This document shows, piece after piece, positions 1 through 17,964 of a DNA stretch of 45,234 bases (the stretch's first letter is position 1; every line of letters begins with the position of its first letter). The DNA is taken from IMG/VR virus record IMGVR_UViG_3300050343_000131, positions 1-45,234 of that record, one strand, 5' to 3'. The position numbers and the translations under genes were made by a program. Under the pieces are notes generated by a model. That model saw only the letters and a program-made list of their open reading frames with translations, was not told the DNA's origin and did not search any database. This stretch comes from a virus.

Positions 1-1362
1 CTGGACTAGGCAAAACGTCTATAATGCTCCAGGTTTTTAATAAGCTTCTAATACGCGGTGAAGTAAAAGCCATGTTAGTTGTTGCCCCCCATAAACCCGA
101 TGTATATGACTTGGCCAGAAGAAGTAAGTGAATGGTCTAACTTCAAACGGTTTTCTTATAGTATTCTACACGGCTCAAAGAAAGATGAAGCCTTTACTAA
201 AACCGTAGACATATACCTTATTAATCCAGAAGGATTAAAATGGTTAGCGTCCAAATTAAAAGGTAAGCCTAGGAAGAACTGGCCATTCGACATGGTCGTT
301 GTCGACGAGTCAGGTAAGTTCAAAACACCAGGTGGTCCTAACAGCGGGTCTAATCGAACATATCAAATGCATCGCATGGTCGCAGGTTTTAAACGCCGAT
401 ACATTTTAAACGGCGGACCTGTCGCAAATGGGTTCTTAGGTCTAATGGCTCAGATGTATATAGTAGACCAAGGACAGTCGTTAGGAAAGAAGATAGGGTA
501 CTATCGTAATAAATATTTTGACCAAATTGGTAGACCTGAATGGAAGATGTACGAGCTTCAACCAGGCGGACGCAAAAAGATAATGAAAAAGATAGCGCCA
601 TTCGCTATATGTCTGCGCGCTGAAGATCATATTGATATGCCTAAAGAGGTTTTAAAGCCAATATACATAACTCTTCCTAGAAAAGCTCAGAAAGCTTATG
701 ACGAAATAGAGCAAGAACTATTTACTATAATAGACAATCATGAAATGATAGCTGAGTCTGCGACTTCAGTAGCTAATAAGCTTCATCAAATATGTAATGG
801 AATAGTATATGAAGACCAAGACCCGCTCGCTACTCCTGTTCCTTCGTCTAAACGCGGTTTAATATATTTACATAAAGAGAAACTATTTGCATTAGATGAT
901 CTAATAGAAGAATTCAATGGCAAGCAAATACTCATAGGATATAAGTTTGTACACGACAGAAAAGCTTTAGAAAAGCACTACGGTAAGCGCATACGTTTTG
1001 CCCAAGACGCTAAAACAGGTAAGGAGAAACGTAAGCTTCAAGCAGATTGGAATGCTGGTAAAGTAGAAATTCTAGCAGGCAATCCTAAGTCTATAGGACA
1101 CGGGCTTAATCTACAGAAAGGTAGTGCTTATGTAATAGCCATGTATAGCATTAATCATGACTTTGATGAGCATGATCAGTTCGTACGCAGACTACGCAGA
1201 AGCGGTAATATGAGCCCACAGGTGTTCGTCTGCCCAATCCTAGCTAAAGGCTTATATGACCATAAGGTCATTTTACCTAACCTCAGAGGTAAGCAGGATG
1301 GCCAGGATTGGTTCTTTAAGGCGTTAAAAAAGTATAAAAAAGGTCGTCAAAGATTGAAATAA
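1..1362 (+). CDS. SNF2-like DEAD-box helicase, main part, broken by a 1-nt indel
   Basis: This is the ATPase/helicase body of a superfamily 2, SNF2-like phage protein, probably acting on DNA in replication or repair. Bases 3-84 encode the Walker A (GLGKT) and an MLVVAP strand. The frame then fails at a run of six C (85-90) and continues correctly in another frame as NPMYMTWPEEVSEW. Removing one C restores a single protein. Further visible motifs are VVVDES (motif II), LNGGPVANG (motif III), a helicase C-terminal part with GHGLNLQ, and RRLRRSG (motif VI). A start inside the broken piece would lack the Walker A, so it is not the real start. The break is most simply a sequencing insertion. It follows the VRR-NUC gene across the circular junction. 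Confidence 0.85.
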
Positions 1363-1365
1363 AGT

Positions 1366-1393
1366 TTTACTTTATTTCAAATCGTGGTAGAAT
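1366..1393 (+). promoter_or_regulatory. Candidate sigma70 promoter with extended -10
   Basis: The elements are TTTACT at 1366-1371, a 16-nt spacer and TAGAAT at 1388-1393. TG sits one base before the -10 hexamer (TGG then TAGAAT), the extended -10 pattern. It lies in the gap between the helicase stop and the next gene, about 45 bases before its ATG. The ribosome site is CGGAG near 1426. Confidence 0.6.
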
Positions 1394-1436
1394 GTCTTTA
1401 CTGAATACATAAACATATATACATTCGGAGAACATC

Positions 1437-1826
1437 ATGACTAAAGGCCTATTCTATAATGGCATCCGTGTCACTGAAATTAAGAAAATTTCTAAATGGA
1501 CTAATGGCGCATTTGACGCCGACGGTAATAAGCTGATAACGGCTTCGTCTAAACGCAAATTGTTATCCAAACTGTCGAAACAGGATCCTCCTGTTTCTAA
1601 GCCAAAATCAAATATCAAAAGCGACGTAATGTCGTTAATTCTAGCGGACAAGGAAGACGCTGAGATAGTTAAGACTATCAAAGCTTTATATCCTAATTCC
1701 AAATTCAACTTTACGCATATCTCTTGGTACCGGTCTACGTTATTTCGCGACAATATAATTGAAGCCAAACACGCGCCGCGTCGTACTAGGCCATACAAAG
1801 ATTGGAAAGCATCTCAAGAAATATAA
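1437..1826 (+). CDS. Hypothetical protein with a PNSK/HxxxY helical module
   Basis: The protein has 129 residues and belongs to no family I can name. Its C-terminal half (about residues 60-105) has the spacing P-x-SK, then H-x3-Y-x3-L, and this recurs in the next gene (1892). The two look like paralogous small helical domains, perhaps nucleic-acid binding. The C-terminus is basic (APRRTRPYKDWK). The gene has its own upstream extended -10 promoter and a GGAG ribosome site before the ATG. A DNA-binding role is an inference from basic charge only. Confidence 0.65.
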   Translation: MTKGLFYNGIRVTEIKKISKWTNGAFDADGNKLITASSKRKLLSKLSKQDPPVSKPKSNIKSDVMSLILADKEDAEIVKTIKALYPNSKFNFTHISWYRSTLFRDNIIEAKHAPRRTRPYKDWKASQEI

Positions 1827-1845
1827 CCGCCAATAGTTTATTTCA

Positions 1846-1854
1846 TGATATAAT
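1846..1854 (+). promoter_or_regulatory. Candidate extended -10 promoter
   Basis: TGA is followed directly by TATAAT (1849-1854), a perfect extended -10. No good -35 is visible, as is usual for this class. It sits between the 1437 and 1892 genes. AGGAGA at about 1879-1884 is the ribosome site of the following gene. Confidence 0.55.
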
Positions 1855-1891
1855 TAAAATTCATCAATAACTCTCTATAGGAGAAATCAAA

Positions 1892-2266
1892 ATGGCTAAT
1901 GTAACCGCCAAAAGTGTAATTGTAGCCGGCATAGAAGCCGGTAAATCTGTTAAATTTATTCTTGGACAAGTGGCAAAGAAATGCCCAGGATCTAAAGCGG
2001 ACGCTTCTCACGTTCGTTTTTATGCAAATGCTCTTGTTAAAGCTGAGAAGCTGAAAACTAGTGTAGCTGCTGAAAAATATGGATGCGGGGCCCGTGGTAG
2101 AAAAGCAGAAGGAGCATCTATTGTAAAAAAGCCCGCAAGCAAAAAGCCATCAGTAAAGAAGAAAGTAGTCCAAAAGAAAGGCGCATCGAAAAAATCAGGC
2201 GGGAACGCCGAGAAAAACGCGCCACGAAAGGCCTCAAAGAAGCGAAAAGCTACGTCAAAGAATTAG
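1892..2266 (+). CDS. Histone-H1-like basic protein, short form
   Basis: This 124-residue protein has a folded N-terminal part (about 1-55), with the same PGSK/HVRFY module as the preceding gene. A KYGCGARGRK linker follows, then a low-complexity Lys/Ala/Ser/Pro tail (about 79-124) resembling bacterial H1-like tails. The tail suggests non-specific DNA binding or condensation, which is inferred from composition. At 2125-2131 the frame carries A AAA AAG, a canonical -1 slippery heptamer. The -1 frame stays open to 2496 and encodes a folded-looking C-terminal part, so this product may be the short form of a longer protein, or the gene may carry a 1-nt sequencing deletion. Confidence 0.75.
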   Translation: MANVTAKSVIVAGIEAGKSVKFILGQVAKKCPGSKADASHVRFYANALVKAEKLKTSVAAEKYGCGARGRKAEGASIVKKPASKKPSVKKKVVQKKGASKKSGGNAEKNAPRKASKKRKATSKN

Positions 2267-2496
2267 TAAACAAGAATAATGTTTATTATCAACGCGAAGC
2301 TAGAGAAGGCGATGCACATTTAGTGTGCATCGTTTACTCGCCGGACAAAGCGGAAGATGCTTCTATAGTTCTGAAAACGGTTGAGATAGTGGATATGCTA
2401 GCATTTCCTAAGAACAGGTTAACAACGACTACTACAGGTACTAAGTTTAGAAGGCTATTGAAGAAATTAGTTAAAAATCATTTTATGAGAGGTTAA
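2125..2496 (+). CDS. -1 frame extension of the H1-like protein
   Basis: This open frame has no ATG, GTG or TTG start before its middle, yet it reads as real protein. It has a very basic helix (RRIEKIRRERREKRATKG) and then about 70 ordinary residues with AKSYVKELVNKNNVYYQ and EDASIVLKTVEIVDML. It ends 1 bp before the next gene, as expected for packed phage genes. Without it, 2267-2493 would be an unexplained gap. It is reached from the 1892 gene by a -1 shift at A AAA AAG (2125-2131), giving a fusion of about 200 residues. A GTG near 2322 is a poor alternative start. Confidence 0.6.
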   Translation, partial: KKARKQKAISKEESSPKERRIEKIRRERREKRATKGLKEAKSYVKELVNKNNVYYQREAREGDAHLVCIVYSPDKAEDASIVLKTVEIVDMLAFPKNRLTTTTTGTKFRRLLKKLVKNHFMRG

Positions 2497-2497
2497 T

Positions 2498-3310
2498 GTG
2501 TCTGAAGATAATCGGGAATACGATCAAACGCAACTAAAACTAGCACAATTCAAGTATCAACCACACAAAGACTATCTTGGGCATATCTTCAGATGGGGTT
2601 TTGCGTCTAAGTTTGTTAACCAGAAGACGTCAGTACTAGATGTTGGCTGCGGTCAAGAGATGCCATTCGCTAGATCTTTAGGAGGGGCAAATCCGAATTC
2701 AGTACCGAGTCGGTATTTAGGCGTAGATCTTAATGGTATTAAAACTCTGGTTAATAGAAAGAACTTTGAAGTATGGGACGAATTTAATTTCGTAGAAGAC
2801 TGGGAATGTATATTAGCTGAAGGACATAAACCATTTGACGTCATTGTTAACTTCGAAGTGTTCGAACATATGAAGATGGGTCATGGTCGTAAACTACTAA
2901 GCGCGATGCGTGAACTATTAGCCCGCGATGGTGTTCTTATATTCAGTACTCCTATATATTGCTCTACATACAAGCAGGCTAGAAACCATATTAACGAGCT
3001 TACGAAGGCTGAGATTGAAGAAGAAATTCAAAAGGCCGGATTGAAGATCATTAAACAGTACGGCACATTCGCTAATATCAATGACATTAAGAAAGTCGCA
3101 TCAAAAGAAGATCTTGATTCACATAAAGCTATGTCCGAGTTTTATGGTAATGAAATACTTGGATGTTACCTCAGCCCTAAGTATCCTGAAGCATCCCGCA
3201 ATATAACGCATATCTGCGTACGTAAAAAAGATAAACGCAAAGCTATGAAATTAAAGCCATCTATTGTAAAATTCGAAGGTGAAAAAGTCGGTAAGGCAAG
3301 GAATAAATAA
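2498..3310 (+). CDS. Class I SAM-dependent methyltransferase
   Basis: This 270-residue protein has a Rossmann methyltransferase core: motif I VLDVGCG at residues 46-52, an acidic strand end GVDLN at about 75-79, and a post-I strand with FEVFEHM at 119-125. The substrate cannot be read from the sequence. It has no DPPY or PC catalytic motif of classical DNA base methylases. Its place directly upstream of a MazG-like/kinase fusion, a ThyA-family enzyme and dCMP deaminase makes nucleotide or DNA hypermodification one possibility; capsule or small-molecule methylation is another. The start is GTG after AGAGG. Its stop overlaps the next ATG (TAATG), so the genes are translationally coupled. Confidence 0.85.
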   Translation: MSEDNREYDQTQLKLAQFKYQPHKDYLGHIFRWGFASKFVNQKTSVLDVGCGQEMPFARSLGGANPNSVPSRYLGVDLNGIKTLVNRKNFEVWDEFNFVEDWECILAEGHKPFDVIVNFEVFEHMKMGHGRKLLSAMRELLARDGVLIFSTPIYCSTYKQARNHINELTKAEIEEEIQKAGLKIIKQYGTFANINDIKKVASKEDLDSHKAMSEFYGNEILGCYLSPKYPEASRNITHICVRKKDKRKAMKLKPSIVKFEGEKVGKARNK

Positions 3311-4308
3311 TGTTTGATTTAATAAGATTAATGCATCAAAGATTTGGGTTTGCGTATGAAGGAGAACCTAGAGTTCTACCTGACGATGAATTCGAATTCA
3401 GAATGAAAGCATTTCAAGAAGAGATAGACGAATATAAAGAAGCTAGATCTAATGGCGATTTAGAAGGACAGCTAGATGCACTATTAGACCTAACTGTCTT
3501 TGTTATGGGCGCAGCTGAGCAACATGGGTTTGAATACAACCAAGGAATGATTAGAGTCATGTCCGCCAATATGCAAAAGCAAGTAGTTGCATCAGCTGAA
3601 GAGTCTAAACGCGGACATAAGTTTGACCTTAAAAAGCCTCCTGAATGGAGAGAACCATACTTAACCGATCTAATTAATCCGCCTAATTTTTATAGAGGCG
3701 TAATTCTATTAGAAGGTCCTGACGCTACAGGTAAAACGACTTTAGCTAACTACTTAGTAGACAATCATAATGCTCTTTATATTCATTCCACGTGGTCAGA
3801 AGATCTAGAAACAAGAATGACTCAGTACCTAGAACATAGTTTACAAATCGCAGGATCTGTTTCTCGCAGACAGCTAGTAGTCTTAGATAGAAATTGGCTA
3901 TCAGAGTTAGTATATACTGACGTATTTAGAAAAGATGTAGGACGAGCAGAATGGCATATGCGTATGCATACACTGTTTATAAGCGCTCTTCAGGGATTAT
4001 GTATATATTGTTTACCTTCTAACCCGAAGCAGTATATGGACCATTTTGCAGATATGGTAGAAGACCCTGACCGCAAAGAAATGTATTCGAATATGGCCGA
4101 TGTATACAATGCGTATTTAGCGCTATGGGAAGGGTTAGAATTTGATTATACCTTTAAAGGGTCGCGTGAATACATAGGCAAGATATTCGAAAATGGAGGA
4201 TTAAACCAGAGTCCGCATTTTATTAGATATGATTTTAATAACGAAGGACAAGACTTAAAATCATTTTTTGAAAGTCTGCCTATGAATCAAGAAAAGGATA
4301 TACATTAA
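3310..4308 (+). CDS. MazG-like pyrophosphohydrolase fused to a dNMP kinase-like domain
   Basis: This is a two-domain enzyme of 332 residues. Residues about 1-75 resemble all-alpha NTP pyrophosphatases (MazG/dCTPase/dUTPase superfamily), with the metal-binding acidic patterns QEEIDEY (36-42) and DALLDL (56-61). Residues about 130-300 are a P-loop nucleoside monophosphate kinase: GPDATGKT at 136-143 and a DR-x-x-LSELVY lid or substrate helix near 193-202, as in thymidylate and deoxynucleoside kinases. It would hydrolyse an unwanted dNTP to dNMP and phosphorylate a dNMP. In T4 these jobs belong to dCTPase and gp1, in the same hydroxymethyl-dC pathway. Specificity is inferred from context only. 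Confidence 0.85.
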   Translation: MFDLIRLMHQRFGFAYEGEPRVLPDDEFEFRMKAFQEEIDEYKEARSNGDLEGQLDALLDLTVFVMGAAEQHGFEYNQGMIRVMSANMQKQVVASAEESKRGHKFDLKKPPEWREPYLTDLINPPNFYRGVILLEGPDATGKTTLANYLVDNHNALYIHSTWSEDLETRMTQYLEHSLQIAGSVSRRQLVVLDRNWLSELVYTDVFRKDVGRAEWHMRMHTLFISALQGLCIYCLPSNPKQYMDHFADMVEDPDRKEMYSNMADVYNAYLALWEGLEFDYTFKGSREYIGKIFENGGLNQSPHFIRYDFNNEGQDLKSFFESLPMNQEKDIH

Positions 4309-4310
4309 TC

Positions 4311-5120
4311 ATGCTTATAAATCAAGAATGGAATACGCTATTAGGCGATATAATATTAATGGGAAGCGACGTAACGTGTCGCGGCTTTGAAACAAAAGAA
4401 TTAATCGCAAATAGCACACGTATAGATATGTCTTGTCCAATATTAACTGTTCCGCAAAGGAAAATCAGTCCAAGATTTTTAGCCGGAGAAGCGTATTGGA
4501 TACTTAGTGGCAGTAATCGCGTGTCCGATATTTCTAAATACTTGCCTGGTATAGCTAAGTATAGCGATAATGGCTTAACTTTTAGAGGGGCGTATGGTCC
4601 AAAAGTCATGGAACAATTGGATTATATGGTGCATGCGCTGCGTCATGACGCGGAATCACGTCAAGCGGTATTAACTATATGGCGTGAAAATCCTATGCCA
4701 TCAAAAGATATACCCTGTACAGTATCGCTTCAGTGGGTAATTAGAGATAACAAACTTTGCTGTATAGCCAATATGCGTTCATCTGATGCCTGGATGGGTT
4801 GGGTTTATGATGTATTTAATTTTTCTATGATATCGGCTTGGATTGCTATATACTTGCGCCAGCATGAATTAAAAAATCTAGAATTAGGAACGCTATATTT
4901 AAATGCTGGATCGCAGCATATCTATAAACATAATTCTTCAGACGCAATAAAATTAGTAAATAATTTTAAACCTAACTCTATATGTAGACCTATAGAGTTA
5001 GAGCGTTATTGTCTGGGTCCAGATGAATTGCTTCTCGATCTAAAAGCTGCAGCAGATAACGAGTGGAAAGCTTGTACGCCGTTTATGGAACAACTGAGGA
5101 CGCTGAATAATGAGACTTAA
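4311..5120 (+). CDS. Thymidylate-synthase-family enzyme, probable dCMP hydroxymethylase
   Basis: This 269-residue ThyA-fold protein has the catalytic Cys136 in DIPCTVSLQW, phosphate-binding Arg in SRQAV (116-120), a Glu60 region and RSSDAWMGWVYD at 156-167. In thymidylate synthase the last motif reads GxPFN, where Asn recognises dUMP. Here Asp167 takes that place. In T4 gp42 the matching Asp selects dCMP, so this is more likely a dCMP hydroxymethylase or methylase than thymidylate synthase. Many phage genes of this type are annotated simply as thymidylate synthase. It overlaps the dCMP deaminase gene by 11 bp and follows the MazG/kinase gene by 2 bp. Confidence 0.85.
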   Translation: MLINQEWNTLLGDIILMGSDVTCRGFETKELIANSTRIDMSCPILTVPQRKISPRFLAGEAYWILSGSNRVSDISKYLPGIAKYSDNGLTFRGAYGPKVMEQLDYMVHALRHDAESRQAVLTIWRENPMPSKDIPCTVSLQWVIRDNKLCCIANMRSSDAWMGWVYDVFNFSMISAWIAIYLRQHELKNLELGTLYLNAGSQHIYKHNSSDAIKLVNNFKPNSICRPIELERYCLGPDELLLDLKAAADNEWKACTPFMEQLRTLNNET

Positions 5121-5601
5121 TAACGACGAATATTACTTGTCTATGGCAAGGTTAGTATCTACACGAGGTACGTGCATCCGACGTAAAGTCGGATGCGTTC
5201 TAGTGGATAGCAGTTTTCACGTTTTATCTACCGGATATAACGGCCCGCCTTCTGGAGTTCCGCATTGCAACGAATTAGGATCAAACTCTAAAAGAGACAC
5301 ATATCCTAATGCGTGTGAAGGAGCAAATTCACCGTCGGGAACAAGTTTAGATAAATGCGCGGCGGTACATGCCGAGCAGAACGCCCTACTTCAATGTCCT
5401 AATATACGTCATATTTCCACGGCGTATTGCACGACATCGTCGTGCGTGCATTGTATAAAATTATTAATGAATACATCGTGCCAAAGATTGGTATTTAGTG
5501 AAGAGTACTCTCATGGAGGAGAACCAATGAAACTTTGGTTGAGCACGGGACGTCAGTGGATACATTTGCCCCGCTATACTTCTAACCCTAATTACGCCTA
5601 G
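5110..5601 (+). CDS. Deoxycytidylate (dCMP) deaminase
   Basis: This 163-residue zinc enzyme of the ComE/dCMP deaminase family converts dCMP to dUMP. Visible are the HAE motif at 87-89 (zinc ligand and catalytic Glu) and SSCVHC at 110-115 with the two zinc cysteines. Further upstream is a GYNGPPSGVPHC substrate loop (42-53), where extra zinc ligands often occur. It is the last gene of the rightward unit and is followed by a terminator. With the ThyA-like enzyme upstream it sets the balance between dCMP and dUMP. Confidence 0.93.
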   Translation: MRLNNDEYYLSMARLVSTRGTCIRRKVGCVLVDSSFHVLSTGYNGPPSGVPHCNELGSNSKRDTYPNACEGANSPSGTSLDKCAAVHAEQNALLQCPNIRHISTAYCTTSSCVHCIKLLMNTSCQRLVFSEEYSHGGEPMKLWLSTGRQWIHLPRYTSNPNYA

Positions 5602-5614
5602 CGCGTTCTCTGAG

Positions 5615-5653
5615 CTAAGCCCTTAATAGACTATGTCTATAGGCCTAGTTTTT
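5615..5653 (+). terminator. Rho-independent terminator of the rightward unit
   Basis: The stem has an inner ATAGAC/GTCTAT pair (5626-5631 with 5635-5640, loop TAT) and outer pairs CTAAGCC with GGCCTAG containing one mismatch. TTTTT at 5649-5653 follows. It lies between the convergent rightward and leftward transcription units. Confidence 0.7.
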
Positions 5654-5671
5654 AAATAGGGTTAACCTTAT

Positions 5672-6082
5672 TTAGCTAGATTCTGGTATAGGATACGCCT
5701 CTCGGCTTAAATGCCAATGAGGTTTATCCGGTTTCTTCCAGAAGCCGCCCCACCTAATATCAATCCCCAGTTCACTCGCTGCCCTAAATCCAGCCTTAGC
5801 CAATCTTTGGTATGCATAATCTGAATGATCTATTTTGCCATTTACGTAGGGATATAGGTCTACCGCGAAGGCTAAATTATCGATAGGATCTGGAAGATGT
5901 CTTGAGTCCATTGTCCATGACGTTCCATCTTGTACGTTCTGCCGCTGCTCTTCTACAGTTCTTCTACCATCTACGCACGCTATATCAACCGCGCTGAGCG
6001 CGAGCGTAAGCTCAGCCCATTCTCTTAATAGAAGCTTAACTCCAGATAAATTTTCCTTGGAACTAGATCCATATTCATACAT
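5672..6082 (-). CDS. M15 (VanY/L-Ala-D-Glu type) peptidoglycan endopeptidase, endolysin
   Basis: This is the cell wall peptidase for lysis. With the ATG at 6082 it has 136 residues and begins MYEYGSSSKENLSGVK, the usual start of phage M15 endolysins. A longer open frame to 6232 runs deep into the lipase gene and adds unrelated sequence, so I chose the short start. Zinc ligands fit SRHLPD (His62), AFAVDLYP (Asp75) and KPHWHLS (His122/His124), the M15 pattern. No signal peptide or membrane segment is seen, so export would need a holin. It overlaps the lipase stop by 8 bp. Confidence 0.88.
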   Translation of the reverse strand: MYEYGSSSKENLSGVKLLLREWAELTLALSAVDIACVDGRRTVEEQRQNVQDGTSWTMDSRHLPDPIDNLAFAVDLYPYVNGKIDHSDYAYQRLAKAGFRAASELGIDIRWGGFWKKPDKPHWHLSREAYPIPESS

Positions 6083-6695
6083 CAAAAACTTTCCCATAGT
6101 GCTCGAGCAGGTGATTGTTTGCGATAGAATATCCGTTAACTTTGTGAGAAGTGTATTGTTCATTAACATGTCTGTACCCCCACCATCTGGACGGAAAATC
6201 GGGTATTGGGTCTCCTTTATTTGAATACTCAATGGTATGTACTCCTGTTTTAATATAGCGTTTTAAAGAACCTGCGGTTAATGTTCGCGGTGCCCCAAAA
6301 GTAATAACCTGTCTAACGTTAAACCCTTCAGCACGTAAAATAGCAGCGGCATTAATAGCCAATACTCCGCCAAGGCTATGGCCAGTTAGGTCAATAGGAA
6401 CATCGCGATCTAACATCCCATATAATCCTTTATCTACTACACCTCTTGCACCTTTTAAGAAGCCTGCATGAGACCATCCTACGCGTTTATCGTACCACGG
6501 AATAAACCGTATATCGCGCAACACGTCCCATACACCTCCTCCTGAGATAAGATCACCTCCTTCTGTTCCTCTAAAAGCCACTACTTGAATATCATCTAAC
6601 GTTGATACTAGGCATTCAACTTCGTTAACTTTACAGCTTACTTCGTGATAACTTTTAGAGGCTAATTTAAACAATTCAGAATGATTATCAATCAT
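6075..6695 (-). CDS. Lipase class 3-like alpha/beta hydrolase
   Basis: This 206-residue protein has the nucleophile elbow GHSLGG (Ser107), an FRGT segment (41-44) forming the oxyanion region, GDPIP with Asp162, and His195 or His199 near the C-terminus. This is a full catalytic triad in the order of fungal-type class 3 lipases. No signal peptide is seen. It lies between a lipoprotein and the endolysin, so a part in lysis (attack on membrane lipid or outer membrane) is likely but inferred. Mycobacteriophage LysB is a functional parallel from another fold family. It overlaps the endolysin start. Confidence 0.85.
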   Translation of the reverse strand: MIDNHSELFKLASKSYHEVSCKVNEVECLVSTLDDIQVVAFRGTEGGDLISGGGVWDVLRDIRFIPWYDKRVGWSHAGFLKGARGVVDKGLYGMLDRDVPIDLTGHSLGGVLAINAAAILRAEGFNVRQVITFGAPRTLTAGSLKRYIKTGVHTIEYSNKGDPIPDFPSRWWGYRHVNEQYTSHKVNGYSIANNHLLEHYGKVFDV

Positions 6696-6696
6696 A

Positions 6697-6918
6697 TTAA
6701 ATGTCCGGACACCTATCTAGTATTTCTAGGAGCTCTTCACGGCTATATTTTCTGCGAAGAGCTCCTATAGTAGCGCCTTCACAGACGCCCCATATAGCCG
6801 TTTCTAATGATTGATCGGCGGCATCAGCAGATCGATCGGCAACTTCGCCACGTACCATTCTAACAGTACCGCAGCCGGTTAATACCAATAGAATTAATGC
6901 TAACATAATATTTTTCAT
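6697..6918 (-). CDS. Small lipoprotein, lysis-associated
   Basis: This protein of about 73 residues begins MKNIMLALILLVLTGCG: a short basic n-region, a hydrophobic core and the lipobox LTGC. It would be lipidated at Cys and placed in the inner or outer membrane. The mature part has AIWGVCEGATIGALRRKYS, a pattern I associate with small lipoproteins in phage lysis regions. I prefer the ATG at 6918 over 6927, because AAGGA lies at the right distance for the second. It could serve as an outer-membrane spanin-like factor, but no inner-membrane partner is seen beside it. Confidence 0.78.
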   Translation of the reverse strand: MKNIMLALILLVLTGCGTVRMVRGEVADRSADAADQSLETAIWGVCEGATIGALRRKYSREELLEILDRCPDI

Positions 6919-7499
6919 TGTTCCCATCCTTCATTTATTTCTTCAAGTTCTATGCGATTGAGTTCATCCAAGTCCTCAGCAGCATCCAGCATATCCCAGA
7001 TAGCTTGGTAGCGTCCTAGGATAATACCTATTGCATTGGCATATAGTGCTTCTTTGATCTCAATAGCTTCCACTACCTCAATCCTAGATTTACCTCTACC
7101 AATACTCATAGCGTCTAACATTGGAGTGGCATTGTTTGGATCGCCTCTAAACGACACTGCCTCAAACTTCTGCTGTCCCCAAGTTTTAACTATCTCGTCT
7201 GGGTAGTTAGCTGTAATGTCTTTAGATAGTTTAGTATGCTTAGAGTTTAACTTCTCAATTAAATCCTTCAGCTTATTATCTCTAGCTAATGATTCTTCGC
7301 GTGGTACTATGGTGTATGTGTATAGTGCCATCCCACCTTCAACAGAGAAGGTAGGGCCTTCCCTACTATATAGTACTTCATCATAGTTAGCGTTGATAAA
7401 CCTATCTTCCATCCAAACCCCTTTCGGGGGCTTGTTGGGGACTTCAATACCTTCACTTCTGCCCACTACAACCTCATTTGAAACATCTGAATAACTCAT
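6915..7499 (-). CDS. Tail fibre assembly/chaperone-like protein
   Basis: This 194-residue protein directly follows the large fibre gene, the usual place for a fibre chaperone. The middle is helical (SLARDNKLKDLIEKLNSKHT). The C-terminal half (KTWGQQKFEA, NNATPMLDAMS, YANAIGIILGRYQAIWDML) matches the W-QQ/TPLLD/ANA-G-Q pattern of phage tail-fibre-associated helical proteins. Its exact function is inferred from this likeness and its position. Confidence 0.65.
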   Translation of the reverse strand: MSYSDVSNEVVVGRSEGIEVPNKPPKGVWMEDRFINANYDEVLYSREGPTFSVEGGMALYTYTIVPREESLARDNKLKDLIEKLNSKHTKLSKDITANYPDEIVKTWGQQKFEAVSFRGDPNNATPMLDAMSIGRGKSRIEVVEAIEIKEALYANAIGIILGRYQAIWDMLDAAEDLDELNRIELEEINEGWEQ

Positions 7500-7511
7500 A
7501 CTTCCTCCTAA

Positions 7512-9926
7512 TTATGATCCGTCTAATATTCTAACTTGAGTATTGTTGGATGCCGTTTGGTATACGTGCGCAATCCTCTCCTCGTCCAATGCTGCTATTC
7601 CAGTGTTAGCCCCTCTTGTCACAGGCGTAACGGCAAACGGACTCTTGAACGTTGGGATCACAGGATCGTGTGGAGTGAGATTCTGCGAAATGGGGTTTAC
7701 GCCGTTTCCAGTTAGTAACATCGCTTGATCATCAATAGGGCTAATAGCTGTGAACTTATGTGCCGCTGCTGTTCCACCTGATGATGTTGTCTTAGTTCCT
7801 ACTGTTGGTGTGGTTCCTGTAAAAGTACATTTTCCACTCTCCATATTGCCATTGTAGTGTATGAAGTAGGTGAACTCTCCTGGCGCGGTTTTAGTTATAG
7901 CAAACGCGGCTGATGAAGTTAATATTGTCGAAGTGACCACAGGCGCGGCAAAAGTAGGGGTGCTGCCAACAAACGTCACAATTTGTAGATAAATCTGATC
8001 AGTGATTGAATCCCTACATACCAAAACTATTTTATCAGTGTCTAAAGCACAGACCGATAAACCATAAAGGTTATTAGTGTAGTTATATTTGGTGGCTGTA
8101 CCTGTACTTGGAATAGACCCAGATGTATCTACAACAACGCATGCTACGTTATAAGAGGTATCAATATAGCATAAAGCGGTTCTGCTGGAGTCGAGCTTAA
8201 CCACGCCATGCTTTTGAAAAGCATGGCGTGCAGCGTCAATTGTTAGATTTACATCGACGTTAGCTGTTGGGGTGTCCCCTACGACTGTTACAATAGAACC
8301 TCTTATTGTTGACAGGTTATCGTATTGCCCTGTTATAAGTGCTTTATCAGTATCAACTTCATTTACTAAGAGTCTTTGCATGTCGCTTGAATTTTGTTGG
8401 CTTTCTGAGGAAGCTGGCTTAGTACACGTCAAACCACTAACTGTAACAACCTGTGCAACCAAGTCGAAACTACTAGTCTCTTGAAAGGCTATCAGTAGTT
8501 TATCTGCACCTATCTTACATACGTCCATTAGGGTATGAGACGATGAAGTGTTTACACTTCGGGAACTTGCCAGTAAATCAACACCTTTTGCCCCAACCCA
8601 GTTTAACCAATCTGCAAACTGCGCTTTAGTCACAAAGGTAAATGGTGTAGACCACTCACTAAACCCTGTAACATCTCCCTCATACCTAACTCTCCAGTAG
8701 TGGGTTAGTGTACCCTCAACCAGTCCTGTTGCAGTTATGCTTTCCAGATTAATAGCGTCTGTACCACTATCAAAGTATATAGTTGAGAAGTCACTATTAC
8801 CAACTTGCCACTGACTAGCTGTATGCGTTTGTGATCCTCCAGGAATAGAGGTAAATGAATCACCAGTTAATTGAACAGACGCGCCTACGCCTGTTAGCCC
8901 GTTAGTAGGCGTTAAATTAGTAGGTTTTTGAACGGTTTCATTAACCGTAGTAAAGCTAAACGTTGTTGAAAACGCAGACCAACCCAGTGTGTCTGACTTA
9001 TATCTGACTCTCCAGTAATACGTGGTCTCGTTTAATGTTAGTCCTGTTTGAGTAAACGATGTTAAATTCACCGCATCCTCTCCACTGTCAAAGTCTATTA
9101 CAGCGAATGTAGCATCAGTAGATATATGCCATTGGGACGCTTCATGCACGCTTGCGGGTGTTGACAAAAACGCATTAGCGATTAACGTGACCTCATCAGT
9201 AACAGTAATATCTAAATCGGTAGGGATTAAATTAGTGGGCGTTTGTACTGCCGCATCTGGAATATTAAATCCAGTAGGAATAGACCTTTGCGACCAAGTT
9301 CCGTCAGTGTTTTGGTAACGCACATCCCAAAAATAATCGTCGCCGGTGTCTAACGCAGGACTAACTATCCAATTCTCAACGGCTCCAAGCACGCCAGATA
9401 ATGCTATTAAATCCGTCATGGCTTCATCACGCGCTACACGAAATTCAGACGCTCCATGAGCTACGCTATATAAACCTCTGTATGCCGATGATATAAGATC
9501 GGGCGTAGTATCCACAACCTCAACACCATCTGCTGGTGATGTATTAACGGGAGTAATTACTTCTTCTAGATCTGTTTCTATCTGCTTAGACCATTTGTCT
9601 AAATTTAAAGACGGTTGAAAATTTAGATTAGGCGTAACTTCAGTTCCAAACGTAGATGTATATATTTTACGATCTGTAGGATCTTTAGTAATTGAATCCC
9701 GTATAAAAGGTGTATCAGGATCCCATACAGGTATACCTTCTAAATTTATATGTTTATTAAATTGCGATTGGCGATTTTGTTCAAAATTAAAAGTTTCATG
9801 CGGAGGAAGTTCTCCGCCGTTCCAACCTTCTTCTAGCTTTGCATCGCCTGGATTAACTATGTCAACTGAATCGGCGTCTTCAGCCCACGCTATGTTCACA
9901 TTTGGTTTGTTATTACTTGCAGTCAT
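7512..9926 (-). CDS. Large tail fibre / receptor-binding protein with FN3-like repeats and a propeller-like C-terminus
   Basis: This 804-residue protein has an N-terminal part (1-125) rich in Asn/Pro/Asp that probably attaches to the virion. Three repeats of about 100 residues follow (near 126-226, 227-331, 333-434), each ending in YYWRVRY/HYWRVRY-like strands followed by WS-x-F/P-F-F; these are fibronectin-III-like. The last about 370 residues hold seven repeats of the form LDxDKhLhhhxD (for example EVDTDKALITGQ, ALDTDKIVLVCR, ALDEERIAHVYQ). This suggests a seven-bladed beta-propeller, a plausible receptor- or glycan-binding head. It is the probable host-range determinant. Confidence 0.8.
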   Translation of the reverse strand: MTASNNKPNVNIAWAEDADSVDIVNPGDAKLEEGWNGGELPPHETFNFEQNRQSQFNKHINLEGIPVWDPDTPFIRDSITKDPTDRKIYTSTFGTEVTPNLNFQPSLNLDKWSKQIETDLEEVITPVNTSPADGVEVVDTTPDLISSAYRGLYSVAHGASEFRVARDEAMTDLIALSGVLGAVENWIVSPALDTGDDYFWDVRYQNTDGTWSQRSIPTGFNIPDAAVQTPTNLIPTDLDITVTDEVTLIANAFLSTPASVHEASQWHISTDATFAVIDFDSGEDAVNLTSFTQTGLTLNETTYYWRVRYKSDTLGWSAFSTTFSFTTVNETVQKPTNLTPTNGLTGVGASVQLTGDSFTSIPGGSQTHTASQWQVGNSDFSTIYFDSGTDAINLESITATGLVEGTLTHYWRVRYEGDVTGFSEWSTPFTFVTKAQFADWLNWVGAKGVDLLASSRSVNTSSSHTLMDVCKIGADKLLIAFQETSSFDLVAQVVTVSGLTCTKPASSESQQNSSDMQRLLVNEVDTDKALITGQYDNLSTIRGSIVTVVGDTPTANVDVNLTIDAARHAFQKHGVVKLDSSRTALCYIDTSYNVACVVVDTSGSIPSTGTATKYNYTNNLYGLSVCALDTDKIVLVCRDSITDQIYLQIVTFVGSTPTFAAPVVTSTILTSSAAFAITKTAPGEFTYFIHYNGNMESGKCTFTGTTPTVGTKTTSSGGTAAAHKFTAISPIDDQAMLLTGNGVNPISQNLTPHDPVIPTFKSPFAVTPVTRGANTGIAALDEERIAHVYQTASNNTQVRILDGS

Positions 9927-9927
9927 A

Positions 9928-11790
9928 TTATACTCCTATAGGTGAAAAGAATCCGCCGAACCCAAAACCTGCGGCTAATGGATTGTCGGCAAAAGCAAAA
10001 AAACCAGAACCTGGGGCTTTAAAATATGTTATTTTAACGCCCGCAGCTCTAGGTAAAATTTTATTTTTATCTGAAGATAATATTAATAGCTCATCTTCAG
10101 GCGTAAAGTCATGCGATACATATATAGACGCGTGCGCGTTATTTGTGTCTATAGCTATGATGCCGGTATTTGTGCCAAATAAAGCTTTAAATACGTCTAT
10201 AAAATCTTCAAGTGTTCCTGACGCCGCGTTATACGCCGCTTTAGCTTTTATATAATTTCTATATTGACTATCGTTTAAAAAACCGTCTGTGATAGTCTCT
10301 TGAGGGCCAAGCGGTATTATAGTCTCTTCTGTACGTGGACTAACTATAGAAGCATCGCCATTCAGTGTCCATCCCTCGAAAGTTTCAGGAGAAATGAATT
10401 CTGCTCCCACTGCCGCCGCATTAACTCTTTGGTAAGCAGTCCTAGAGGAATTAAGCTCTAGTTGCGGCGTGTAAACAGACAACCCTTCTCCCGCCACGCC
10501 TAGATAAGACTCACCACGCGCAGAGGTTGGAGTTGTAACGAGGCCCATGCGAACCGCTGTGGAGGCAGCTAAAGTGGAGGTCATGGTGCATAAATACCTT
10601 CCAGCCGATACCTCAGAAATACTCGCCGTCACTCCCGACTCTACGCTAACTACACCATTGCTTAGATCAAAGTTCGCATAGTTGGCTGTACCATTATCCC
10701 ATAATTGCAACACGCTGCGTTCGTCTGCCTCCGCCTCACAGCTAACCGTGTAAACCCCAGCTAGACCAGAAACCCATTCATACTGCAGAATATGTGTGGC
10801 GCTAGTAGCGGCCTCCTGTATCTTGTTTCCGTCAACGGTGATATTACCGGAAGGCTTTTTCCAGTCGGTATTACTGAAATCTTCCGTATAAGTAAAAACA
10901 TTCCTTCTAGCGTCCGAGGTATAATCAGCGGCGTTAAAGTCTACTGCTAGAGTGCTGGCATTGTACAACTTCACCTGACTGACTGAACCGTTTAGTCTAT
11001 TGGACGCACCGGACGCGCTCGCCCCTATCTCTATTTCATTTGAGCTGTTGAAAATAGTCCCAAGAGTTATAGCAACAGTATCACCTAACTTAGTCCAGTT
11101 TTCGCCGCGGTCTGTGGAAGTATAAAAAATTGCCGTCGTTGCGGTTAAATCTAACCTCAAAGATATTAAATCCCCGTCTGAAGCAGGTACGACTTCAGTA
11201 GAATCGGCGGTCAGCACACTCGACCCGTCATTAGTCCATCTGAATCTAAGCTCGCCAGCCACGCCGCCGTTTTTCACGGCTAAATAGAAAGCTATATCGG
11301 TGGAGTCGTCTGACTGAGAAACTATATCGGTAAACCCCGCGGGGCTCCAATCGTCAAGTGCCACGTCATAACAGATGATCTGATTGAGTGTTGACATATC
11401 TTGCGCGGGCGTACTAGCATAATCCCCGCTGGCACCTGGTAAAACCATATACCCGTCGAAAAACTCAAATTCGCTTTCTGTTTGATTTACAGTGTAGAAC
11501 GGCCCTACCCCAAACGGTAAAGCGGAAGACGTACTTGCAAAGCCAAAGTATGGGATAAATGCACCATCTATAACATTCCTACTTTGTCCAACTAATTCTC
11601 CTAATATATCTAACTGTACTCCTGACGCTTCGCTTAAATTTCTATATGTTAGAACATTTTGAAACACGTCTTCTAAATTTTGACCTTCTTCTAATAAAGC
11701 AGAAATATAGTTTTTTAAATTTTCAGCTTCACTAAATTGAACTCCTAATCTAGATAAAGCTAAAGGTACAACGTCTATATGGGCTATCAT
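9928..11790 (-). CDS. DUF2612-type tail protein with a large lectin-like insertion
   Basis: The N-terminus (about 1-85) and C-terminus (about 490-620) match a Mu-gp48-like/DUF2612 baseplate protein: LDILGELVGQSRNVIDGAF early, then DSQYRNYIKAKAAYNAASGT and a glycine-rich end. Between them are about 400 residues of beta-rich sequence with concanavalin/LamG-like character (STLNQIICYDVALDDW, LTATTAIFYTSTDRGENW, VSQVKLYN) and a second beta-sandwich-like stretch. The inserted DNA (about 10400-11460) looks richer in G and C than its flanks. It is probably a baseplate protein turned adhesin. It lies between baseplate J and the fibre. Confidence 0.78.
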   Translation of the reverse strand: MIAHIDVVPLALSRLGVQFSEAENLKNYISALLEEGQNLEDVFQNVLTYRNLSEASGVQLDILGELVGQSRNVIDGAFIPYFGFASTSSALPFGVGPFYTVNQTESEFEFFDGYMVLPGASGDYASTPAQDMSTLNQIICYDVALDDWSPAGFTDIVSQSDDSTDIAFYLAVKNGGVAGELRFRWTNDGSSVLTADSTEVVPASDGDLISLRLDLTATTAIFYTSTDRGENWTKLGDTVAITLGTIFNSSNEIEIGASASGASNRLNGSVSQVKLYNASTLAVDFNAADYTSDARRNVFTYTEDFSNTDWKKPSGNITVDGNKIQEAATSATHILQYEWVSGLAGVYTVSCEAEADERSVLQLWDNGTANYANFDLSNGVVSVESGVTASISEVSAGRYLCTMTSTLAASTAVRMGLVTTPTSARGESYLGVAGEGLSVYTPQLELNSSRTAYQRVNAAAVGAEFISPETFEGWTLNGDASIVSPRTEETIIPLGPQETITDGFLNDSQYRNYIKAKAAYNAASGTLEDFIDVFKALFGTNTGIIAIDTNNAHASIYVSHDFTPEDELLILSSDKNKILPRAAGVKITYFKAPGSGFFAFADNPLAAGFGFGGFFSPIGV

Positions 11791-12968
11791 ATTATTGTTA
11801 CCTCTATATTGTCTAGCGTAAATTGCGATTTTTCATTAAAAGCTATGGATATGTCGTCTGTATCGTCGACGGAAGGCGCGCCGCCTGCAGCTATTGTAAG
11901 AAGACTAATGGATATACCTGCTGTAAAATTAATAGGAGTATAAAGTTCAGTACGTATAACATCGTCTGAAACTCCAAATTCTTTTCCCACTACTAAATTG
12001 CCATTTGCATAATCTACTATCGCCTGTTTAATATCGTCTATCCCTGTTTCTGGAAAACCTTCGAACGTATCAATGTTTACTTGTATATAAATATCAATAG
12101 GAGTAGGTCTTGAAAAGAATACCGTATACTCTACCCCTTGGCTGTCTGTTCCAATATCAGTCGTATTGCCCGAAGTAGATATACCCGTTGGTTTCTTTAA
12201 TAAAATAGCAGATGCGATGTCTGTACCTTCTCCGCCTTCTACTATAGATCGTATAGAGTGAGGCGGTAATCCATTTGCGTCTACTGCGTCTTCCTGATTT
12301 TCAAATGTTACGGCATATGTTACAAGTGGGAGTGCTAAAATTTCTGAAGTAATCGATTCTAAAACTGTAACAGCCGGTTTAGTTACAGACTTAAGCCTGC
12401 GAATACGCAATTCAGCGTCTGTTTCTTCGTTCTGTCCTGGCAAAGCGTCTTCAGCATTAGTGACATTATCCCATCCCGTAATTGGCGAATCTATTACTGT
12501 TATGCTTCCGGCTAACGCCTCTATAGGACCTGTAACTATATTTGTAGCGGCGATGTTAATACTTCCGCCTATAGGTATAGTAACTTCTATATCAGTTGAA
12601 AATGTCGCATTTCCAGAAAGCGTAGAAACTAAACTTCCTAAAGGTATAACAGTAGATGGTGTGCCTGATACTGTAACCTCGGCGGTTGTGGCTATAGCAG
12701 GTTCTCGTTCTATTGCATTTAACTGCACCAGGTTAGATAATGCCGCGCCGGTAGCTTTAGTAGGAGCGAAAGCATTATAGCATGCTTCAGCTATTTCCCA
12801 TAGATTAGCATCTGATTCAGAGTACACCCCGTTGATTTGACCATCGGGTGACTCTGGTGTTAGGTTAAGATTACTACCTAAGACAGAAGTAACCGCAGCG
12901 TTTTTATCGGCTAAAATCTCAGGGAGTCTTTTACGCTTAAAACCTTCGTCTGTTACGCCATTATCCAT
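11787..12968 (-). CDS. Baseplate J-like protein (Mu gp47 family)
   Basis: This 393-residue protein has the order typical of baseplate J: an N-terminal helix with the SPDGQINGVYSE and GAALSNLVQLNAI segments, then a beta-rich domain. The middle LPGQNEETDAELRIRRLKS is the most conserved signature of the family. It forms the baseplate wedge around the hub. It overlaps the downstream gene by 4 bp and the upstream gene by 8 bp. Confidence 0.92.
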   Translation of the reverse strand: MDNGVTDEGFKRKRLPEILADKNAAVTSVLGSNLNLTPESPDGQINGVYSESDANLWEIAEACYNAFAPTKATGAALSNLVQLNAIEREPAIATTAEVTVSGTPSTVIPLGSLVSTLSGNATFSTDIEVTIPIGGSINIAATNIVTGPIEALAGSITVIDSPITGWDNVTNAEDALPGQNEETDAELRIRRLKSVTKPAVTVLESITSEILALPLVTYAVTFENQEDAVDANGLPPHSIRSIVEGGEGTDIASAILLKKPTGISTSGNTTDIGTDSQGVEYTVFFSRPTPIDIYIQVNIDTFEGFPETGIDDIKQAIVDYANGNLVVGKEFGVSDDVIRTELYTPINFTAGISISLLTIAAGGAPSVDDTDDISIAFNEKSQFTLDNIEVTII

Positions 12969-15849: not shown

Positions 15850-17366
15850 TATAGCCTCACAGGAGAATTTAGGTCGATGGCTGTTTGTTCTGTCATATTA
15901 GATAACTCGCGGCGTATTGCGGCGGCGGTAAGTTCAGGAGATTCATTTCCAGAGACTTGTATATTTACACCTCCTTGTATAGTCGTACCGACGGCGTTGT
16001 TATTCGTAGTACTTACGTCTCGTGAAAGGCGCTGCCCAACGTCTGGAGATGTTGAAACGTCATCGCCGCCGAATATTCCAAACACGGTATCTTTAAGATT
16101 ATCAAGTGAAAATGCGTTTTTGATGTTCTCTTTAAGGTCATCAAAACCTGTAGTAAATCTATTGAATATATTATCTACAAAAATATCTATATCTTTTTTT
16201 AACTGATTAAGAACTTGACGGAAAGAACCGGCGCCTAAATCTCTAGTAAACAATTGAAATATCTTAGACCATCCGTCAAATATAACTTCTGTTATAGCGG
16301 AGATACCTTTGAATAGTAATGCTACAGTTTTTATCTCATCAGCCCACTGCGGATATTTCTGCAGCATATTTCCGATGAAGCTTTCGCCTCCTTCAAAAAA
16401 CACTTTAGCGTCTTGCGCAAGTAAAGCTATAGCAGTAAGTACCACGGCTATCAAAGCTGGAAGTAGAAGCATAGCGGCATTCATAAGAAGTGTAGCGCCA
16501 GTCAAAGCGCGCATTAGTGTCAGAAGTATAGTCAATGTGGTTATGAACTTAACCGCTATAAAACCGACAGTTGCTGCTGTTAATATCTTTATAGCAAAAG
16601 CCGCTTTTTCTATAAACTCAGGAATACGCTGTTCAATAATGTCCCTGTTGATTTTCCACCATTCTGTAAAGTCGTCGGCCAGGTCTTCTAAGTTAGGAAC
16701 CAACGACCTGGCTATAACCCTTGATACTTGCTTTATCACACGCCATATGTCAACAAGTGAATCTTGAAACTCCTCGGCTAAGCGCGCGTCTTCACGGGTA
16801 GTAGTACCTAGAAGTTCTGCTTCCGCAACTAGTTCTTGTATTCCATCAGATCCTATTTGAAGCAATCTTATAGAATCACGCAAACCTAGTTTGTCTGCTA
16901 TCTCTAATTGCTGAGACTTACTAAACTGGTCAAACCTATTCGAAACTTCAAGAAGAATTTCATCAGTATCTTTTAATTCGCCATTGGCTTTGGCAATCTG
17001 AATGCCAAGTAAACCAAATGCTTCTAATCCAGAACCTGTGCCGCGGGCAGCTTCGCCGATGCGTACAGATAGCTGTTGTAGGCTACTAGACAAACCATCA
17101 GACGTGCCGCCTGCGCGTTCTTGTGCAAATTGTAAAGCATCTAATTGACCAACTGATATTCCTATTTCGTTAGCAAGTTTTCCCTGTTCGTCACTAGCGC
17201 GAGTAGTTGCTATAGTAAAACCGACAACAGCGGTTGTACCAGCGACTAAAACTGTTGCAAGTTTTTTAACTAGATTAAGAGTGCTATCGAGTTCCTTTTG
17301 AAACTCTTTAAGGCCTTCTTCATCGTAGTCAAAACCTAAAGCAACTAATAATTCGTCTAATGGCAT
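15849..17366 (-). CDS. Tail tape measure protein
   Basis: The 505 residues include an early hydrophobic segment (about 35-53), a helical region with an ISVGQLDALQFAQERAG motif typical of tape measure proteins, two strongly hydrophobic helices at about 270-320, and a C-terminal region rich in Asn and Gly. Tape measure proteins set tail length at about 1.5 angstrom per residue, so this would make a short tail of roughly 75 nm (inference). It starts inside the stop of the frameshifted chaperone (TAATG). Confidence 0.88.
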   Translation of the reverse strand: MPLDELLVALGFDYDEEGLKEFQKELDSTLNLVKKLATVLVAGTTAVVGFTIATTRASDEQGKLANEIGISVGQLDALQFAQERAGGTSDGLSSSLQQLSVRIGEAARGTGSGLEAFGLLGIQIAKANGELKDTDEILLEVSNRFDQFSKSQQLEIADKLGLRDSIRLLQIGSDGIQELVAEAELLGTTTREDARLAEEFQDSLVDIWRVIKQVSRVIARSLVPNLEDLADDFTEWWKINRDIIEQRIPEFIEKAAFAIKILTAATVGFIAVKFITTLTILLTLMRALTGATLLMNAAMLLLPALIAVVLTAIALLAQDAKVFFEGGESFIGNMLQKYPQWADEIKTVALLFKGISAITEVIFDGWSKIFQLFTRDLGAGSFRQVLNQLKKDIDIFVDNIFNRFTTGFDDLKENIKNAFSLDNLKDTVFGIFGGDDVSTSPDVGQRLSRDVSTTNNNAVGTTIQGGVNIQVSGNESPELTAAAIRRELSNMTEQTAIDLNSPVRL

Positions 17367-17964
17367 TATTTTAAACTCGCTCTTAAATCTAACATTTCAT
17401 GCATATCAGCTACGTCGCAGATATTATAAGTTCCATTTTGTAATTCTGCCAAGGTGCACAAAGGCGGATCGGCAAATACTGGCCTATACAACCATAAATC
17501 CAGATTCGGGAACCTCTTTGCGTCTATGATTTTTCCTGTAGAGTGGCCAGGAGGACTTCTGCCTTCTGGCCTTTGAAAAAATCCGCGTAGTTAGCCTTAA
17601 TAACAAACAGACACGCTTTATACATCTCACCTAAACCGGCGTCGTTATAGATTTTATCGAAATTCTTATCTGTTATACGTTCGCCATCACGTTTGGTGGC
17701 TTGATCAGTTAGTATTTCTTTTATTAAATTAGTAAGATCTTCAGGGGAAACTTTATCGAATACAGAAGATATTACGCCTTCAAAAGCTTCTACATTAACT
17801 TCGGGGGTTTTACTGGTCGTGTCTACCCCCTGGAATAGCTTAATCAGAGAGTCTCCAAACGTTTTGACTAGTTTAAATTTCATAGTAATCTGCTTTGTCG
17901 CAGGCCACTGAGTGGTTACATATAGGGCACTATTTATGGTTTCTTCTATTGTTTCACAGCTCAT
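17366..17964 (-). CDS. Tail assembly chaperone, -1 frameshift long form
   Basis: This is the predicted fusion of about 199 residues. After ANYADFF the -1 frame reads QRPEGRSPPGHSTGKIIDAK and ends in AELQNGTYNICDVADMHEML then DLRASLK. This resembles the T-domain of chaperone fusions, with the closing DVxDMHEMLD helix. It has no start codon of its own. The stop TAA shares a base with the ATG of the tape measure gene. Long forms in such phages load tape measure and tube protein during tail assembly. Confidence 0.82.
17524..17964 (-). CDS. Tail assembly chaperone, short form
   Basis: This 146-residue protein lies between tube and tape measure, the standard site of the G/GT-type chaperones. It reads TMKFKLVKTFGDSLIKLFQG then helices to CLFVIKANYADFFKGQ. 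Codons GAT TTT TTC at 17583-17575 contain the heptamer T TTT TTC, and the -1 frame continues to 17366. The short form stops at 17524. Confidence 0.85.
   Translation of the reverse strand: MSCETIEETINSALYVTTQWPATKQITMKFKLVKTFGDSLIKLFQGVDTTSKTPEVNVEAFEGVISSVFDKVSPEDLTNLIKEILTDQATKRDGERITDKNFDKIYNDAGLGEMYKACLFVIKANYADFFKGQKAEVLLATLQEKS
17575..17581 (-). promoter_or_regulatory. Slippery heptamer T TTT TTC for -1 frameshifting
   Basis: In the zero frame the codons read GAT TTT TTC, so the heptamer is in the X XXY YYZ register. The -1 frame has a stop (TAA) just upstream, in the ANY codon region, so the shift must happen within a window of about 70 nt, and this is the best site. An A AAA site near 17529-17533 is a weaker alternative. 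Confidence 0.75.

Follow-up and report, generated by a model that had tools for sequence, protein, structure and literature searches.

The gene at positions 1892-2266 of the window, by which we mean the whole virus record of 45,234 bases analysed here, is followed in the -1 frame by an open reading frame that has no start codon of its own, and the question is how, if at all, that second frame comes to be translated. On the sequence evidence set out below we consider it highly probable that the answer is a conserved programmed -1 ribosomal frameshift in a phage gene of the histone-H1-like, DNA-binding type. The features of the locus that we refer to are as follows.

1437-1826, plus strand: upstream gene, candidate paralogue of the H1-like N-domain (H1-domain profile match)
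1846-1854, plus strand: probable extended -10 promoter element TGATATAAT (consensus match only)
1892-2266, plus strand: H1-like gene, zero frame (ORF list; homologues in five phage contigs)
2101-2496, plus strand: -1 frame ORF (open frame, tblastn homologues, overlap conservation, AF2 model)
2108-2114, plus strand: internal Shine-Dalgarno-like GAAGGAG, a possible 5' stimulator, 10 nt before the heptamer
2125-2131, plus strand: slippery heptamer A AAA AAG in X XXY YYZ register, present in all six phages compared
2307-2335, plus strand: RNA hairpin in the -1 ORF, with a 13-bp stem (2307-2319 with 2323-2335) and a 3-nt loop
2498-3310, plus strand: methyltransferase-like gene with GTG start (Pfam Methyltransf_23, E 3e-15; conserved neighbour)

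The H1-like gene has an ATG start with a ribosome-binding site, TAGGAG, at 1878-1883, and encodes 124 aa: a helical N-domain of about residues 3-60, then a lysine-rich tail, KKPASKKPSVKKKVVQKK... The -1 ORF, of 131 codons, shares 166 nt with the zero frame and includes no ATG, GTG or TTG upstream of a GTG at 2323. It carries a conserved helix from about 2225 and then a C-terminal domain of four strands and a helix, and ends 1 bp ahead of the GTG of the methyltransferase-like gene, to which it is probably translationally coupled. The only in-register X XXY YYZ heptamer of the 1892-2266 gene lies in the overlap, in the context GT[A AAA AAG]CCC, and a shift there would give a fusion of 201 aa with the junction ...SIVKK/ARKQKAISK... 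A preliminary description of this DNA had placed the heptamer, its register and the open -1 frame at these positions, had noted the missing start, and had put the fusion at about 200 residues, in all of which it was correct. Its impression that the -1 frame looks like protein is borne out by tblastn homologues and by the conserved overlap peptide described below.

With regard to the surroundings, the gene at 1437-1826 is a probable paralogue of the N-domain, as it matches the H1-domain profile with E 6e-4 in the window and as low as 6e-10 in relatives. Elements resembling a -10 box also lie 5' of the H1-like gene in L002 (TGATATAAT), L004 and L005; a promoter motif derived from two genes was near chance level in the window.

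The AF2 model of the N-domain, computed on the L005 protein, is a 4-helix bundle of the helix-turn-helix-like type, predicted with confidence, and the tail is disordered. Its fold matches are not significant: the Mos1 helix-turn-helix has Z 4.9, and histone H1.0, of winged-helix fold and one among many helix-turn-helix folds, has Z 3.6. Eukaryotic linker histone H1 shares a globular helical domain, a lysine/alanine-rich tail and a weak fold resemblance, and no sequence relation was found in Pfam or PDB searches; against the Pfam linker histone H1 and HC2 families nothing exceeded threshold, the best being HC2 at 12.3 bits (L004) with a cut-off of 40. The histone-like proteins of Mesyanzhinovviridae/Bradleyvirinae and kin (phrog_17205-like, e.g. 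PaMx74_56) have a similar N-domain, the corresponding position after the helicase gene and a basic low-complexity tail. However, these proteins end after their EKA-rich tail, and the five annotated relatives examined have neither a -1 domain nor an in-register A AAA AAG. In the case of the C-domain the AF2 model, of moderate confidence (pLDDT 72), begins with a long helix, which is followed by four strands and a further helix. Sequence searches of Pfam, PHROGs and PDB gave nothing convincing, and the fold search gave no confident relative: PURA chains ranked first in Foldseek against PDB, at a non-significant E of 0.42; the PUR (Pur-alpha) repeat has a beta4-alpha fold, and the model has four strands plus a helix.

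Protein searches, with the methyltransferase-like gene as a conserved neighbour, gave five relatives that have the gene pair.

L002, IMGVR 3300027852_000072: heptamer at 5267, hairpin at 5386
L004, IMGVR 3300009413_000016: heptamer at 4705, hairpin at 4817
L005, IMGVR 3300033388_003413: heptamer at 859, hairpin at 893
L021, IMGVR 3300033146_003239: heptamer at 1255, hairpin at 1305
L045, contig CAJYBF010000017.1, from a metagenome bin: heptamer at 4470, hairpin at 4504

The L045 phage contig sits in a bin labelled Mollicutes, probably through mis-binning. A related methyltransferase is also present in L028, which lacks the gene pair, and in AXL_3 and ctUtU524, which have other lysine/alanine-rich genes at that place; these were rejected as relatives. 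No named close relative was found by DNA-level match of window positions 1-12000 in the phage collection, and tblastn found the -1 domain in no named phage.

The six contigs, which come from different assemblies, share a common layout of H1-like gene, -1 ORF, methyltransferase and downstream nucleotide-metabolism genes. Methyltransferase identity is 75-77% between the window and both L003 (on the same contig as L002) and L004, and 64% with L005. The -1 domains of L004 and L002 were picked up by tblastn without reliance on the H1-like part (E 6e-11 and 5e-9), and those of L045 and L005 have 36 of 63 aligned residues identical past the zero-frame stop, with 16 synonymous codon differences. L021 has the least similar C-domain, with no match in the profile search and a weak resemblance by hhalign (E 0.045, hardly alignable), and its -1 ORF is correctly placed. 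In all six phages it is the -1 frame that encodes the second domain, and in all six there is exactly one in-register A AAA AAG in the H1-like gene, within the overlap. The overlaps range from 31 to 166 nt; the heptamer is present in L005 though the overlap there is 46 nt, and in L045 it abuts the zero-frame stop (A AAA AAG UAG). L021 has a second possible shift site at 1279-1285, A AAA AAA with UAA directly after. The slip codons range from 80 to 124, yet while the site shifts by these 44 codons four of the six fusions are of 193-202 aa (201, 202, 197, 193, 173 and 181 aa for the window, L002, L004, L005, L021 and L045 respectively).

This comparison bears directly on the alternative, raised in the preliminary description, that a single base was lost from the A run by a base-calling or assembly error, which split one ordinary gene. 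The concern was a fair one. The helicase gene at the start of the window (61-150) loses its frame close to a C6 run at 85-90 (MLVVAPHKPDVYD / MYMTWPEEVSEW), and since its homologues in L002 and L004 are intact, at least one homopolymer indel is likely in the window contig. However, the same split is found in the five contigs from other assemblies, always to -1 and at differing positions, and all five have the second frame at -1, no start for it, and the heptamer; in none are the frames merged through an extra A, or present as separately started genes. Both frames are moreover conserved within the overlap. For the window, L002 and L004 this was examined by replacing codons of the zero-frame tail with synonyms, drawn according to the codon usage of the phage in question, and scoring how similar the -1 peptides (TKGLKEAKSYVKEL, AKDIVAAEKSFEDI and QKDYIEAENYFSEV respectively) are across the 14 codons that precede the zero-frame stop. 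The score was 61, against a null of -8.4 (sd 17.9; z 3.9; P 3/50,000), and in only 0.4% of the null were all three -1 peptides free of stops. The -1 peptide in the overlap is conserved beyond the constraint of the zero frame. As the homologues share the split and the -1 peptide is conserved, a base-calling error is so improbable that we treat it as excluded, and the missing base of the preliminary description is refuted.

Since the overlap peptide is conserved and there is no start there, the -1 frame must be translated already inside the overlap, which argues for frameshifting and against both an indel and reinitiation after the stop. The latter is part of another alternative, in which the -1 ORF is a separate protein made from a non-standard start (ATC, ATT, ATA, ACG or CTG) or by reinitiation. 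There are Shine-Dalgarno-like sequences in or just before the overlap in the window and L002, and ATC codons in the -1 frame of both; but the ATC codons have no shared position and are missing in L005, none of the six phages has an ATG, GTG or TTG ahead of the domain, and the -1 peptide is already conserved before the zero-frame stop is reached, which plain reinitiation fails to explain. We regard a separate start as very improbable.

The heptamer taken from one sequence is weak evidence, because a single copy is unremarkable where a gene is so rich in lysine (P = 0.65 by synonymous permutation of the window gene). Under synonymous codon shuffling the probability of having a heptamer inside the overlap and none outside is 0.11 to 0.60 per phage, and the joint P for the six is 4.4e-5, which is optimistic as the product treats the phages as independent. 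Among all predicted ORFs of the six sequences there are 11 in-register copies of A AAA AAG, of which these sites make up six, and for the L002, L005 and L045 loci the heptamer is the sole in-register copy across all predicted ORFs.

The register is also what bears on whether ribosome or RNA polymerase slips. Polymerase slippage on the A6 run would give mRNAs one base longer or two shorter, which join the frames; there is an A run at the site in each phage, and such slippage is used elsewhere, in Thermus dnaX and at bacterial runs of 9 A (PMC5009743). However, the runs here are of only 6 A (L021 also has one of 7 A), as against the 9 A of the cited runs, and the X XXY YYZ register, which is kept in six of six, is needed by tandem slippage on the ribosome and not by transcriptional slippage. 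AAAAAAG also occurs out of register in these genes (L002 at 5331, L005 at 776). We infer that slipping takes place on the ribosome, and at A AAA AAG, and that most of the product is the short form; slippage by the polymerase is very improbable.

The stimulators expected of a ribosomal site, a structure 5-9 nt 3' of it or a Shine-Dalgarno element 5' of it, are not conserved in the five loci scanned (the window, L002, L004, L005 and L021). In the window the GAAGGAG has an anti-Shine-Dalgarno duplex of about -8 kcal/mol, and L002 has AAGGAGG 15 nt before the heptamer, while L004, L005 and L021 have no convincing element of this type at plausible spacing. The stem-loop that the preliminary description suggested might lie after the site was found in L004 alone, as a 6-bp stem-loop 6 nt past the heptamer; the window, L002, L005 and L021 have no strong one at stimulator spacing, and a different hairpin is conserved farther 3'. 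It is at A AAA AAG that dnaX naturally shifts (PMC5009743), and the comparison of this heptamer with several others in E. coli (PMC5009743) makes it plausible that the phage sites shift at a moderate or low rate even where strong stimulators are lacking. In E. coli dnaX the same heptamer is used, and the window, like dnaX, has a Shine-Dalgarno-like element about 10 nt upstream. However, the dnaX shift gives a shorter product, at about 50%, whereas the phage shift would give a longer one, and no near stem-loop is conserved.

In each of the six phages the more distant hairpin folds more strongly than any other 36-nt segment of the gene pair, and it starts 13-37 nt past the zero-frame stop (in the window the 36-nt segment is at 2303-2338, and begins 37 nt past the stop). 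It coincides with the codons for the first beta-hairpin (GDAHLVCIV in the window), and its strength exceeds what the encoded protein demands: in comparison with sequences whose -1 frame was recoded synonymously, P is 1/20,000 for the window, 607/20,000 for L002, 322/20,000 for L004, 129/20,000 for L005, 0/20,000 for L021 and 6/20,000 for L045, with a combined P (Fisher) of 2.5e-12. The stem covaries, with compensatory changes: in a codon-level alignment of five, 9 of the 13 pairs are altered on both sides, with sliding controls far lower, and the register in L002 and L005 is offset by a few bases. As it is 28-172 nt from the slip site it is not an ordinary stimulator, but an RNA signal separate from the frameshift site. 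The Rfam search gave no match. A plain intrinsic terminator was considered and rejected: a U run follows the stem only in L004, and the hairpin was absent from the terminator scan of the window and L004. In T7 gene 10 shifting is reported to be influenced by a distal element that lies over 200 nt 3', in the transcription terminator (PMC5009743), and a long-range effect of the hairpin on shifting would by analogy have a precedent there. T7 10A/10B is likewise a -1 extension of an abundant protein; however, gene 10 is a capsid gene, and the hairpin of the six phages is instead within the coding sequence of the extension.

As regards programmed ribosomal frameshifting, sequence comparison shows that both overlapping frames are conserved, that the second has no start, that the heptamer is kept in register, and that the -1 frame is under selection within the overlap. 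Under this reading most ribosomes would stay in the zero frame and make the helical N-domain with its lysine-rich tail, while a fraction would slip back one base as tRNA-Lys decodes AAA AAG at 2125-2131. In the product of the latter the rest of the tail would be replaced by a short charged helix and a compact C-terminal domain would be added, to give the 201 aa form, and reading would end beside the methyltransferase start. The short form may bind and compact DNA, and the fusion may add a second contact. Our guess, modelled on the gpG/gpGT and T7 10A/10B assemblies, is that the short form would coat or compact DNA and the rarer fusion would bring a second activity, perhaps a DNA/RNA or protein contact, to the same polymer. 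Lambda gpG and gpGT likewise come from one gene, whose short product is abundant and whose -1 fusion, which carries an extra domain, is made less often, as predicted for the pair described here, and the ratio logic is probably the same. However, they are tail genes, whereas the H1-like pair adjoins helicase and nucleotide-metabolism genes, and lies between the helicase and methyltransferase genes and not between those for major tail protein and tape measure. The window has a separate, probable tail-assembly-chaperone frameshift of the ordinary type at 17366-17964 on the minus strand, with T TTT TTC in register near 17581, a -1 frame that runs to just before the tape-measure gene, and an extension that looks typical.

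It is conceivable, though rather unlikely, that frameshift and hairpin form one switch that sets both the ratio of forms and downstream expression. Termination at the zero-frame stop would leave the hairpin free to fold, cutting short or stabilising the H1-like message; ribosomes that shift would open it, produce the fusion and extend translation to the methyltransferase and nucleotide genes. The frequency of slipping would then set the ratio of the two nucleoid-protein forms and also downstream expression.

The conserved frameshifts so far documented in phages lie for the most part in genes for structure and assembly. A limited literature search found no prior report of frameshifting in an H1-like phage gene or of the distal hairpin, and as far as such searches show, this gene context and the conserved hairpin have not been described, the class of mechanism being known. 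The C-domain is overlooked entirely by gene callers because it has no start codon. The finding adds a conserved frameshift in a probable DNA-binding gene of the replication and nucleotide-metabolism region, and a nucleoid-type phage protein is thereby predicted to exist in a second form. The placing of the hairpin relative to the stop, and not to the slip site, opens the way to a test of long-range RNA effects or of ribosome-controlled attenuation in these phages.
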